55,096 nucleotides of DNA from Gemmatimonadota bacterium. Lineage in GTDB: Bacteria > Gemmatimonadota > Gemmatimonadetes > Gemmatimonadales > Gemmatimonadaceae. The notes under the pieces were generated by a model, which saw only the letters and a list, made by a program, of their open reading frames with translations, was not told the DNA's origin and did not search any database. Both the position numbers and the translations under genes were made by a program. Each line of letters starts with the position of its first letter. Positions within the stretch are counted from its first letter, which is position 1. This document shows, piece by piece, positions 35,001-38,273 of this stretch. The stretch spans positions 1 to 55,096 of the forward strand of contig QHVE01000010.1 of the NCBI GenBank assembly GCA_003223455.1. The letters are read 5' to 3'.

Positions 35001-35031
35001 AGAATTGACGATTTGACGGTTCGACGGTTTA
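35001..35031. repeat. Short direct repeats GACGGTT
   Basis: Between the lipoprotein start and the deoxynucleoside kinase stop: GAATTGACGATTTGACGG then TTCGACGGTTTATG, i.e. three imperfect 9-base units. The same unit occurs in the hairpin arms at 17036-17119. Confidence 0.4.
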
Positions 35032-35721
35032 TGAGGGGACCCCCGCCGATGCCCGCCCGAGCGCGCCCGGAAACAGCTCCGTCTGCGGAAGCTCTGGCTC
35101 GAGTCGCGCACGAACCCGCGCAGCGATGGCCTCGATCGCCGCCGGATCGGACACCAGATCGTACTCGCGCACGTCGAGCTTCAGCACGGGGCAGGCGCGG
35201 AAGCGTGTGATCCAGCGCTCGTACCGCGCGTGCAGCGCCGACCAGTACTCCTCGGGCGTGTCGCGCTCCTTCGCGCGCCCCCGCGAGCGGATGCGCTCCA
35301 CGATCGTCTCGAGCGGCGCGTGCAGGTAGACGAGCAAACGCGGTGGCCGCGCGGCGGGGGAGTGCAGCAACTCGACATACAGCCGCCGATACAGCTCCCA
35401 CTCGATCTCCGACATCAATCCTTCGTCGTAGTGCCCCCGCGCGAAGATCTCGGCGTCCTCGTACCAAGTGCGGTCGAGCACCCAACTGCCGCCGGCGCCG
35501 CGCATGCGGCGCATGCTCTCGAACCGCGTAGCGAGGAAGTGCAGCTGGAGGTTGAGGGCCGCGGCGCGCATCGCCTCCACGCCACCCGCGTAGAACCGCT
35601 CGAGCCAGGGGTTGTGCTCGTCCACGCTCTCCAGCGCGTGCTGGAGCCCGAACCGGGCCGCCAGCGCCCGCGTCAACGTGCTCTTGCCCGAGCCCACCAT
35701 CCCGGCGACGCCGATCAGCAT
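35029..35721 (-). CDS. Deoxynucleoside kinase family protein
   Basis: 230 residues. Phosphorylates deoxynucleosides in salvage. P-loop GMVGSGKST at residues 7-15, DRTWYED at 83-89 (family DRS/DRT motif), ERIRSRGRAKE as the Arg-rich lid, and a Phe/Trp-rich helix with FLATRFES. Substrate among dA, dG and dC cannot be fixed by eye. ATG 35721. Confidence 0.9.
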   Translation of the reverse strand: MLIGVAGMVGSGKSTLTRALAARFGLQHALESVDEHNPWLERFYAGGVEAMRAAALNLQLHFLATRFESMRRMRGAGGSWVLDRTWYEDAEIFARGHYDEGLMSEIEWELYRRLYVELLHSPAARPPRLLVYLHAPLETIVERIRSRGRAKERDTPEEYWSALHARYERWITRFRACPVLKLDVREYDLVSDPAAIEAIAARVRARLEPELPQTELFPGALGRASAGVPS

Positions 35722-35734
35722 GCACGAAGCTACG

Positions 35735-35762
35735 ACGCCGGAAGCGGCTGCGCTTCCGGCGT
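35735..35762 (-). terminator. Terminator of the Rieske operon
   Basis: ACGCCGGAAGCG, loop GCTG, CGCTTCCGGCGT: a perfect 12-base-pair stem. It lies 24 bases past the stop of the second Rieske gene on the minus strand and just before the next gene. Confidence 0.75.
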
Positions 35763-35785
35763 GGTCGACGTCCGACCCGCGTCAG

Positions 35786-36241
35786 CTATCCGATCGTCAG
35801 GATGTCCGTCGCGGCGTTGTACTGCGTCGTGAGGATCGGCAGGTTGGTCGCCGAGCCGGCGGCGTTCGGCTGACGCGTGACGGTGCCGTTGGAGTCGAAT
35901 CGCGAGCCGTGATTCGGGCACTCGAACGAGACGGCGTTGTTCACGATGTCGAGCCTCGTGCCCTCGTGGGTGCACGCCGTCGACAGCGCGAGGAAGCTCG
36001 TCGGACCGGTGCGCTTGACGGCCACACGCGCGTCCGACGGGAGAAACGCGAGCAGCCCGACGGTCGCAAGCTCCGGCACGGTCGAGACCTTGACCGTCAG
36101 CCCCGTGGGAAGGGGCCCCGTCGCTCCGCTGCCGCCGATCTGTCCATCACCACATCCAGCGGCCAGCGCGGCCGCGCCCGCGACGGCGAGCGTGCTCTTG
36201 GCCAGGAACGCGCGCCGACTGAGGCAATCCTCGCAGCTCAT
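35786..36241 (-). CDS. Rieske [2Fe-2S] protein, Tat-exported, possible lipoprotein
   Basis: 151 residues. N-terminus MSCEDCLSRRAFLAKST: a CxxC at residues 3-6 just before the Tat twin arginine, then a hydrophobic stretch ending in LAAGC (Cys30), a possible Tat-lipoprotein site. The Rieske cluster ligands are Cys90 and His92 (CTHEGT) and Cys108 and His111 (CPNHGSRF). Compact (no bc1-type linker helix), so it probably sits on the outer face of the inner membrane by its lipid. Fourth gene of the operon. Confidence 0.92.
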   Translation of the reverse strand: MSCEDCLSRRAFLAKSTLAVAGAAALAAGCGDGQIGGSGATGPLPTGLTVKVSTVPELATVGLLAFLPSDARVAVKRTGPTSFLALSTACTHEGTRLDIVNNAVSFECPNHGSRFDSNGTVTRQPNAAGSATNLPILTTQYNAATDILTIG

Positions 36242-36276
36242 GGTCTACAGGGGAGGGGGGAGAGTAGCGAACGGGC

Positions 36277-36804
36277 TCAGGGCAGCGTCACGACGGCATG
36301 CTGCCACTGCGCGAGATCGGTGTCTTCCTGATACAGCTTGTCCACGTCGACGGCCACCGAGGTGTCGACGAGCCGCACCGCGTAGCGATCCATGCTGCGC
36401 GTCGCACGTCCCTCGATGAACGTGCCATCCGGACGATACTTCGACTTGTGCTTCGGGCACTGAAAGCGGTTGTTGCCCGCATCCCACTTGAGCGCCGTGT
36501 TCTGATGCGGACAGGCGAGCGCGAACGCGTACACCGACTTGCCGGCGCGCGCGAGGATCACCTCGTTGTCCTTGTCGATCTGCACGCCGTCCGCCGCGGG
36601 GATGGGGTAGGTCCGCTCACCACCCTTCGCCGCGATCGCGCTGATCCAGCGCAGCGGCAACGCGTCGGCGCCGGCGGGTGCCATGCCGATCGCCGCCAGC
36701 GCCGCCGCGCCGGCACGGAGGGCGTCGAGCAGGAAGTCGCGCCGATTGTGCAAGGTGCATCCGGCGCAATCGTCACTCGACGCGCTCGGCTTGATATCCG
36801 TCAT
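36277..36804 (-). CDS. Rieske [2Fe-2S] protein, Tat-exported
   Basis: 175 residues. N-terminal CAGC (13-16) and then HNRRDFLLDALRAG, a Tat motif with hydrophobic region to about 47. Cluster ligands are Cys98 and His100 (CPHQNT) and Cys116 and His119 (CPKHKSKY). It differs from the second Rieske protein in the sequence of both boxes, so the two should have different potentials or partners. After the boxes come GTFIEGRATRSMDRYAVRL and a helical tail. Stop is 35 bases before the next gene. Confidence 0.92.
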   Translation of the reverse strand: MTDIKPSASSDDCAGCTLHNRRDFLLDALRAGAAALAAIGMAPAGADALPLRWISAIAAKGGERTYPIPAADGVQIDKDNEVILARAGKSVYAFALACPHQNTALKWDAGNNRFQCPKHKSKYRPDGTFIEGRATRSMDRYAVRLVDTSVAVDVDKLYQEDTDLAQWQHAVVTLP

Positions 36805-36810
36805 CTCAAG

Positions 36811-36872
36811 GCCTCAGTGATTCAGTGACTAGTGACTCGGTGACTCGGTGACTCAGGTGACTCGGTGAACGG
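36811..36872. repeat. Tandem GTGACTCG-type repeat
   Basis: About seven imperfect 8-10-base units (AGTGATTC, AGTGACTAG, TGACTCG, GTGACTCG, GTGACTCAG, GTGACTCG, GTGAACGG), upstream of the first Rieske gene and downstream of the CopD-like gene. Too short and unspaced for CRISPR. Confidence 0.55.
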
Positions 36873-36895
36873 CCGGACTTCCGGACCCAGCTCTG

Positions 36896-37420
36896 CTACG
36901 CGTAGTTCGTGAGCACGACGCCGACGAGCGTCGTGGTGATCCAGAGGATCAGGCTCATCACCGAGATCGTGCGGAGCCGAGCCCAGAGGGCGGTCTCGTT
37001 CCCTCCCGAGGCGAGCGCTTTCTCCGTCCGGGTCATCATGAACCCGTTGAGCAGCAGCAGGCCGACGAGCGACAGCTTCACCCAGAACACGGGCGAGCCG
37101 AGGAACTCGTCCACATCGGCGAGGAAGAGCAATACCCCACTGGCGAACGAGAGTGCGAGCCCGCCCAGCACCACCGCATGGACCCGGGCGAGATCGCCGA
37201 GCTGCCGCGTCCGATCCTCGGCGCTGCCGCGCGCGGCCCGGATCGTCGCGCGGTCGGCCGTGAGCGCCGCGCCGCCCGCCAGGAGCAGGGGCACGAGGTG
37301 CAGGAACAGCACGGCGGACGAGACGGCCTTGGAGTCGCTGTAGAGCGAGTTCCAGGGCTCGGCGAGACGCGCGAGCGCGCTCGAGCCCTCGGCGGCGGCG
37401 AGTTGCGCGAGAAGGATCAT
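36896..37420 (-). CDS. Four-helix membrane protein, CopD/HemJ-like
   Basis: 174 residues with helices at about 33-55, 80-100, 110-130 and 147-170. Two histidines lie inside or at the start of helices 1 and 2 (His41 in LFLHLVPLLLAGG, His81 in LARVHAVVLGG), and Lys115 in FWVKLSLVG is like CopD and HemJ-type proteins, which bind heme or metal. It is the second gene of the Rieske operon, 4 bases after the gene before it. Function unproven. Confidence 0.75.
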   Translation of the reverse strand: MILLAQLAAAEGSSALARLAEPWNSLYSDSKAVSSAVLFLHLVPLLLAGGAALTADRATIRAARGSAEDRTRQLGDLARVHAVVLGGLALSFASGVLLFLADVDEFLGSPVFWVKLSLVGLLLLNGFMMTRTEKALASGGNETALWARLRTISVMSLILWITTTLVGVVLTNYA

Positions 37421-37424
37421 CTGG

Positions 37425-38018
37425 TCAGTCGCGCCACAGGACCATCATCCCGGCGCCGGTAAGGGCCACGCCCATCGAGGCGTATGCCGTGTTGCGATGC
37501 TTGCGTCGTGCGTCGGCGCTCTGCTCGGCGTCTTCGGACAGCTTGATGCCGGCGTACGCGAAGCCGGCGTCCGACGCGAGCATGAGCAGCGCATGGAGCG
37601 TGCGGCGCGTGCGTCCCTGCTCGACCACGCGCGAATCCCAGAGGTTCCAGAGACCGGTCACGGTATTGACGCCGAATACCGTCGCGAGACCGGTTGCACC
37701 GATGCGATGCCCATTCCTCGCCCACCCGTCGGCGCCGCTGCCCTTCTGGTACAGCTCGTTGCCGGCCGCCGCCTGAAAGACGAACAGCGGGATCATCGCG
37801 TAGGCGCCATACCGGTGGATCCGAAGTCGGCGCTCGTACCACTCGCTCACCTCGATCGACTTCCGGCGTCGCCGCGGCGTGGTGTCCGCCTGAAGCTGCA
37901 GCGAGAGCGGAAGCTCCAGCCGCGACGGCATCGCCACGGGCGCGCTGTCGGGCACGACACGGGTGGTATCGGTTGGACCCGCGAGGGCGAGGAGGAGAGC
38001 GAGCGCTGACGAATGCAT
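37425..38018 (-). CDS. Four-helix membrane protein, candidate di-heme b-type cytochrome
   Basis: 197 residues. Cleavable signal (MHSSALALLLALAGP), about 50 residues outside, then four helices at about 71-88, 105-125, 143-160 and 175-195. Exactly one His stands at the start of each helix: His68 (IHRYGAYAM), His104 (GHRIGATG), His142 (LHALLMLA) and His174 (KHRNTAYA). With alternating topology, His68/His142 would face one side and His104/His174 the other, the geometry of two stacked b hemes. Other His residues are absent after position 2. ATG 38018; upstream sequence in the longer frame is not coding. First gene of the operon. Confidence 0.75.
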   Translation of the reverse strand: MHSSALALLLALAGPTDTTRVVPDSAPVAMPSRLELPLSLQLQADTTPRRRRKSIEVSEWYERRLRIHRYGAYAMIPLFVFQAAAGNELYQKGSGADGWARNGHRIGATGLATVFGVNTVTGLWNLWDSRVVEQGRTRRTLHALLMLASDAGFAYAGIKLSEDAEQSADARRKHRNTAYASMGVALTGAGMMVLWRD

Positions 38019-38273
38019 GTCGGGGCGAGTTGGAGGGGAAGCGGACGCATGCCGAGCCGTTATGACCACCTACACGAGAACTATTGTAAAGTCCAATATT
38101 CAGCGGCCGGCGCGGCATCGCATGGGACTACCCTCACGCTGCACGAGCGGCCCAACCATCGTGCCTGCCGATCGATGGGCCGCGAATGGCAGACGGCGCC
38201 GCCGGTCTGCTTATTCCCACTGAACACGGCGCGCTGGGTTCACGACACGCCAGACGACCATCCCCCGAATGCC

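Follow-up and report, generated by a model that had tools for sequence, protein, structure and literature searches.

Rieske proteins usually partner cytochrome b. Whether Rieske-based electron transfer at a membrane requires this partner is the question raised by a locus within a 55,096-nucleotide stretch of DNA from a Gemmatimonadota bacterium (contig QHVE01000010.1; hereafter the window), where genes for two different exported Rieske proteins lie next to genes for two small membrane proteins. The cassette is a concrete candidate for a further electron path based on Rieske proteins, and a conserved one. It brings together two uncharacterised membrane families, which pair with Rieske proteins in a strictly modular way, and, at some loci, tandem di-Rieske lipoproteins. 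The need for a cytochrome b partner thereby becomes testable in cultivable Gemmatimonas.

The cassette and its surroundings

The original prediction described four same-strand genes separated by 4, 91 and 35 bases. All four open reading frames are found on the minus strand with exactly these gaps (P1/P2, P2/P3 and P3/P4, respectively):

37425–38018, minus strand: P1, four-helix membrane protein of 197 aa (ORF, AlphaFold model, alignment; Pfam matches sub-threshold)
36896–37420, minus strand: P2, four-helix membrane protein of 174 aa (ORF, model, alignment, weak profiles)
36277–36804, minus strand: P3, Tat-exported Rieske protein of 175 aa (ORF, Pfam, PDB relatives, alignment)
35786–36241, minus strand: P4, Tat-lipoprotein Rieske protein of 151 aa (ORF, Pfam, alignment)
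35735–35762, minus strand: perfect 12-bp hairpin (4-nt loop), lying between P4 and the deoxynucleoside kinase gene
35029–35721, same strand as P1–P4: deoxynucleoside kinase gene, downstream of the hairpin

A GTG at 38069 offers P1 an alternative, upstream start. The hairpin that was proposed to close the gene set does have two perfect 12-bp arms (35735–35746 and 35751–35762) and a fold z of −2.4, but it is without a T-run and was not identified as a terminator. The kinase gene begins about 14 bp beyond it, on the strand of the cassette. Neither of the obvious Rieske partners is at hand, as had been stated: P1 and P2 have no Pfam match to cytochrome b, and the arsenite oxidase large subunit AioA is found neither in the cassette nor among its immediate neighbours in the window.

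Linkage and distribution

Relatives of P1 were collected by scanning 84,980 species genomes with one peptide pattern, which returned 106 relatives, the best 80 of which were analysed as loci. At 74 of these best 80 of 106 loci, all in public genomes, at least one other cassette gene of the same cluster lies within 1.5 kb. Three of the six partnerless loci in this set of 80 sit at contig ends; two loci, L104 and L112, have long flanks and yet no partner gene. With this single pattern, the best 80 of the 106 all fall in labelled Gemmatimonadota lineages, bar one labelled only “bacterium”, and no match to P1 was found on plasmids. P1 is encoded in 30 of 60 related genomes, where P2 and P3 adjoin it at nearly all loci and P4 at many, and in 43 of 150 sampled Gemmatimonadota genomes, all within the window's own family or order. 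The cassette is carried by many soil and freshwater Gemmatimonadales. Its recurrence in dozens of genomes excludes that the four genes are neighbours by chance. Whether the genes stay together across genomes had been set beforehand as the test of the prediction, and they do; a match of the membrane proteins to a known non-heme transporter family, which was to count against it, was not found above cut-off.

The order of the genes is variable. Among the best 80 of the 106 P1 loci, the layout 1-2-3-4 occurs 29 times, 1-2-3 16 times, 1-4 ten times and 1-4-2-3 seven times, besides rarer orders. The median gap between model ends is 3 bp for P1–P2 and 17 bp for P2–P3. Both pairs also occur alone, namely P1–P4 and P2–P3 (the latter without P1 at L136), and the window's genome itself has a second copy of the form P1-P2-P3 on another contig (C117). 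P1-P2-P3 is also the form present in the single-contig genome G030. Because the layout is modular in this way, P1 with P4 and P2 with P3 appear as separable units that are most often combined, which suggests two pairs, each made of a membrane protein and a Rieske protein, and not a single complex that needs all four. Clustering of the open reading frames at about 80 loci brought up no additional gene in more than 14 of them, at scattered positions, and no recurring c-type cytochrome or other electron carrier was found near the cassette loci. Likewise, no fusion of a membrane protein with a Rieske protein was found, only Rieske–Rieske tandems.

The cassette is a conserved, modular and undescribed membrane/Rieske gene set. 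A literature search for Rieske proteins with DUF4079, DUF2231 or b561 in Gemmatimonadetes returned nothing. No described family fits P1 or P2: every membrane-family score lies below the curated cut-off, and no paper on them was found.

Two Rieske proteins, one of them a lipoprotein

P3 and P4 score 38.4 and 36.2 bits against the Pfam Rieske profile PF00355 (cut-off 20.3), and both carry complete C-x-H/C-x-x-H ligands and RRxFL Tat motifs. The prediction of two different Tat-exported Rieske proteins is thereby confirmed, with the amendment that P4 is a lipoprotein whose lipobox cysteine (Cys30 in the window) is kept in all 58 rows of its alignment. The Rieske ligands are invariant in both families (P3, 74/74 with one gap; P4, 58/58). 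Neither protein reaches the PetC/QcrA equivalog cut-offs (P3, 37.8 bits versus 154; P4, 33.6 versus 250).

The motifs of the window's P3 are CPHQNT...CPKHKSKY (CPHQNT...CPKHKSxY in the family). P3 is devoid of the disulfide cysteines and keeps the serine and usually the tyrosine, residues that tune bc1-type Rieske clusters upward. The window's P4, with motifs CTHEGT...CPNHGSRF, also lacks the bc1-type disulfide cysteines, unlike some of its homologues: both are present in 15 rows and neither in 43, and never is there only one (p = 3e-14, not corrected for kinship). Since the two cysteines come and go together, the alignment indicates that the P4 disulfide was acquired or lost as a whole. The effect of this disulfide on the potential varies between Rieske families (PMC3758308).

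The two proteins also share a CxxC in the n-region of the Tat signal, immediately ahead of the RR motif. It is present in 71–72 of the 74 rows of P3 and in the majority of those of P4, and in none of the other classes of open reading frame in about 1 Mb of adjoining sequence. At six loci (L069, L075, L077, L080, L083 and L088), P4 is a single lipoprotein with two tandem Rieske domains, both with complete C-x-H/C-x-x-H ligands.

P3-like genes also occur in other surroundings. In one genome (G017), they adjoin a gene for a c-type cytochrome (L138, 2223–3270) and one for a DUF2231 membrane protein (L139, 2224–3263), and a stray P3-like gene at L137 lies near a LuxR-type membrane regulator. On cyanobacterial conjugative plasmids (L164, L165 and L166), genes for a multicopper oxidase, a metal transporter and an exported Rieske protein form a conserved trio.

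Two four-helix membrane proteins

The AlphaFold models of P1 and P2 are four-helix bundles, in line with the prediction. In P1, the bundle is preceded by a hydrophobic N-terminal segment and a linker, and its helices (59–95, 98–128, 136–164 and 168–194) are modelled with high confidence. His68, His142 and His174 are present in all 92 distinct rows and His104 in 90, the other two having Met. Asn118, Thr121 and Gly122 are likewise invariant in the 92 rows, and the window's P1 has an NTVTG motif in helix 2. Each helix holds one of the four histidines, 6–9 residues from its N-end in the model. In an antiparallel bundle, His68 and His142 would lie at one end and His104 and His174 at the other, a placement to be expected of two stacked b hemes, each with bis-His ligation. 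Methionine is another heme ligand, and its occurrence at the His104 position (L013 and L016) would give a His/Met heme.

Profile matches of P1 are weak, and its fold matches are unspecific. The best Pfam match of P1 is DUF4079, at 21.2 bits against a cut-off of 31.4; weak matches of family members include Ni_hydr_CYTB (b561; E 0.0011) and DUF420. Two of 30 members match PF01292 weakly and none exceeds the cytochrome b561 family cut-off. Fold matches include cytochrome b561 (4o6y), cytochrome b6 (7r0w; Z 12.7, rmsd 2.9, 126 aligned residues) and the designed diheme bundle 4D2 (7ah0; Z 12.5), together with many unrelated helical bundles. Since de novo four-helix bundles without heme score higher still (Z up to 16), the fold alone does not decide. 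Profile searches of the PDB with P1 and P2 gave chance-level matches only. The cues to the orientation of P1 conflict, a signal-like N-terminal segment standing against an arginine-rich flank of helix 1. A common ancestry of P1 and P2 was considered and rejected (hhalign probability 0.6%).

In P2, for which the model is again confident, His41, His81, Asp56, Lys115, Asn125 and Gly126 are invariant in 70 rows wherever these positions are present; Trp160 is also listed as invariant. Its relationships are distant. Of 28 members, 20 match DUF2214, 17 UPF0093/HemJ, nine DUF6644 and four CopD, in every case weakly. No member exceeds the cut-off of CopD (PF05425), for which the window's P2 gave no match. 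The label “CopD-like” originally given to P2 is accordingly weak, and DUF2214 and HemJ/UPF0093 (E 0.0014) match better, though still below threshold: against the HemJ equivalog TIGR00701, P2 scores 16.1 bits where the cut-off is 138.05. His41 is not at the same depth as His81, and the two do not have to bind a common heme; P2 might not be a heme protein at all.

Respiration and heme synthesis in the genome

Cytochrome b (PF00033) is detected neither in the window's genome nor in nine congeners, which brings up the possibility that the cassette stands in for complex III. Another contig of the genome (C46), however, encodes a multiheme cytochrome c, a molybdopterin/iron-sulfur protein, NrfD and ActD-, ActE- and ActF-like reading frames, the last three recognised by eye. 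C46 thus carries the full set for alternative complex III (ActA, B, C, D, E and F-like), while proteins of the ActA, ActB or ActC type are missing from the cassette. NrfD proteins are found in all 60 relatives, congeners included, and a heme-copper oxidase is encoded as well. The cassette also does not track cytochrome b when the window's genus is counted a single time (p = 0.41). As a simple reading, a missing complex III was therefore rejected: since alternative complex III is already encoded in full on another contig, the cassette is no substitute complex III in this organism, and with the heme-copper oxidase also in place it adds to the main respiratory chain rather than replacing it. Further Rieske proteins of the genome lie in other contexts, for example with SUF and nitrite reductase genes.

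HemH, HemY and HemJ all went undetected in the window's genome (G000) and its congeners (G001–G009), though heme proteins are encoded. This may reflect heme auxotrophy or an alternative route to heme.

A probable electron-transfer module and its alternatives

The cassette is most likely an electron-transfer module, and a specific form of it seems somewhat better than an even bet: a conserved and self-contained redox module in the membrane of Gemmatimonadales, in which a b561-like P1 and Rieske proteins at the surface would mediate exchange between menaquinone and the periplasm. Directly seen are the genes and their linkage, the invariant putative ligands, the predicted folds, the export and lipid-anchor signals and the complete Rieske ligands. 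On this basis, P1 would be a short b561-like transmembrane cytochrome, with one b heme held by His68/His142 near one membrane face and a second by His104/His174 near the other. The lipid anchor would hold P4 at the outer face of the membrane, where it could exchange electrons with P1, and a like exchange would link P2, which may contain a heme or quinone site, to the Tat-exported P3. The electrons would then most probably travel between menaquinone, or a donor in the cytoplasm, and a carrier in the periplasm, for example a c-type cytochrome, in either direction. The small membrane module originally envisaged is supported in part, by the linkage and by the His pattern of P1, which could accommodate two hemes; the cassette is not, however, a substitute complex III in this organism, and its layout suggests pairs rather than an obligate foursome. 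A bolder version, which appears unlikely, makes the cassette a second, independently evolved Rieske/b-heme quinol:acceptor oxidoreductase. In this case, a diheme P1 and the lipid-anchored, in some loci tandem di-Rieske, P4 would oxidise menaquinol and feed a periplasmic carrier, as bc1/b6f does with cytochrome b, possibly with bifurcation.

Other roles can be envisaged for the same proteins. The resemblance of P1 to b561 proteins such as human Dcytb, a diheme transmembrane ferric reductase with two b hemes on four conserved histidines (PMC6123691), would also suit the reduction or uptake of metals in the periplasm, with P2 moving or sensing copper or iron and the Rieske proteins giving or taking electrons. 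The four weak CopD matches among P2 members and the Rieske gene that follows multicopper oxidase and metal transporter genes on the cyanobacterial plasmids are in keeping with this. Yet the CopD scores fall well short of the cut-off, the Rieske protein of the cyanobacteria has only about 30% identity and belongs to a different module, and no gene for a metal transporter, an oxidase or a metal regulator turns up repeatedly next to the cassette, so that a metal-related function is rather unlikely. The four-helix proteins could instead read the state of the Rieske clusters through the membrane, perhaps via the N-terminal CxxC, as part of a redox sensor or signalling device. The conservation of this motif and its confinement to P3 and P4 in about 1 Mb, as well as the LuxR-type regulator at L137, would agree with such a role, but no regulator recurs beside the cassette and four buried invariant histidines are better suited to cofactor binding; signalling is accordingly quite unlikely.

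The least probable proposal, to which very little credence is given, sees in P2 a HemJ-like porphyrinogen oxidase that passes electrons to the Rieske and b-heme proteins. It draws on the likeness of P2 to HemJ/UPF0093, including the conserved helix-1 His and helix-3 Lys, and on the lack of HemJ and of any HemY above cut-off in the window's genome and nine congeners. However, the ferrochelatase HemH is absent from the same genomes, and the gap in the heme pathway is therefore not that of a single missing oxidase. The cassette tracks the absence of HemH rather than a need for an oxidase, a trend that is weak when the window's genus is counted a single time (p = 0.08). Moreover, other cassette-bearing genomes do possess HemY (G010 and G040) or a canonical HemJ (G012 and G030), and P2 falls far short of the HemJ cut-off (16 bits versus 138).

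Comparison with known systems

The proposed electron-transfer module recalls several known systems without coinciding with any. AioB of arsenite oxidase is a Tat-exported Rieske protein and one of the closest PDB relatives of P3 by sequence; that of NT-26 also lacks the disulfide pair (PMC3758308). The AioB equivalog TIGR02694 gives only about 30 bits against a cut-off of 95.65, however, and the cassette has no molybdenum large subunit, nor does one recur as a neighbour at the cassette loci. A pair made of a DUF2231 gene and a P3-like gene (L139) again places a gene for a small membrane protein of four helices beside one for an exported Rieske protein, but the membrane protein is of another family; no functional description of DUF2231–Rieske pairs was found in the literature. 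With the HemJ/DUF2214/CopD superfamily, P2 has in common the four helices, the helix-1 His, the helix-3 Lys and weak profile matches, and differs by its additional invariant His81, its linkage to Rieske genes and a score far below the HemJ cut-off.

A parallel to P1 is cytochrome b561 (Dcytb and plant Cytb561; PF03188, PF01292), which it matches weakly by profile and, without specificity, by fold. Both have a four-helix core with four conserved histidines, one on each consecutive helix, and two b hemes are to be expected. P1, however, has four helices instead of six, its sequence scores below the family cut-offs and its genetic partner is a Rieske protein, not ascorbate or a DOMON partner. The bc1/b6f complexes, finally, combine Rieske proteins with a cytochrome b that carries two heme histidines on each of two helices, whereas P1 has one per helix; the cassette encodes no cytochrome b homologue and two Rieske proteins, one of them a lipoprotein. 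What it has in common with bc1/b6f is a Tat-exported Rieske protein together with a membrane protein whose four candidate heme histidines could form two stacked hemes.
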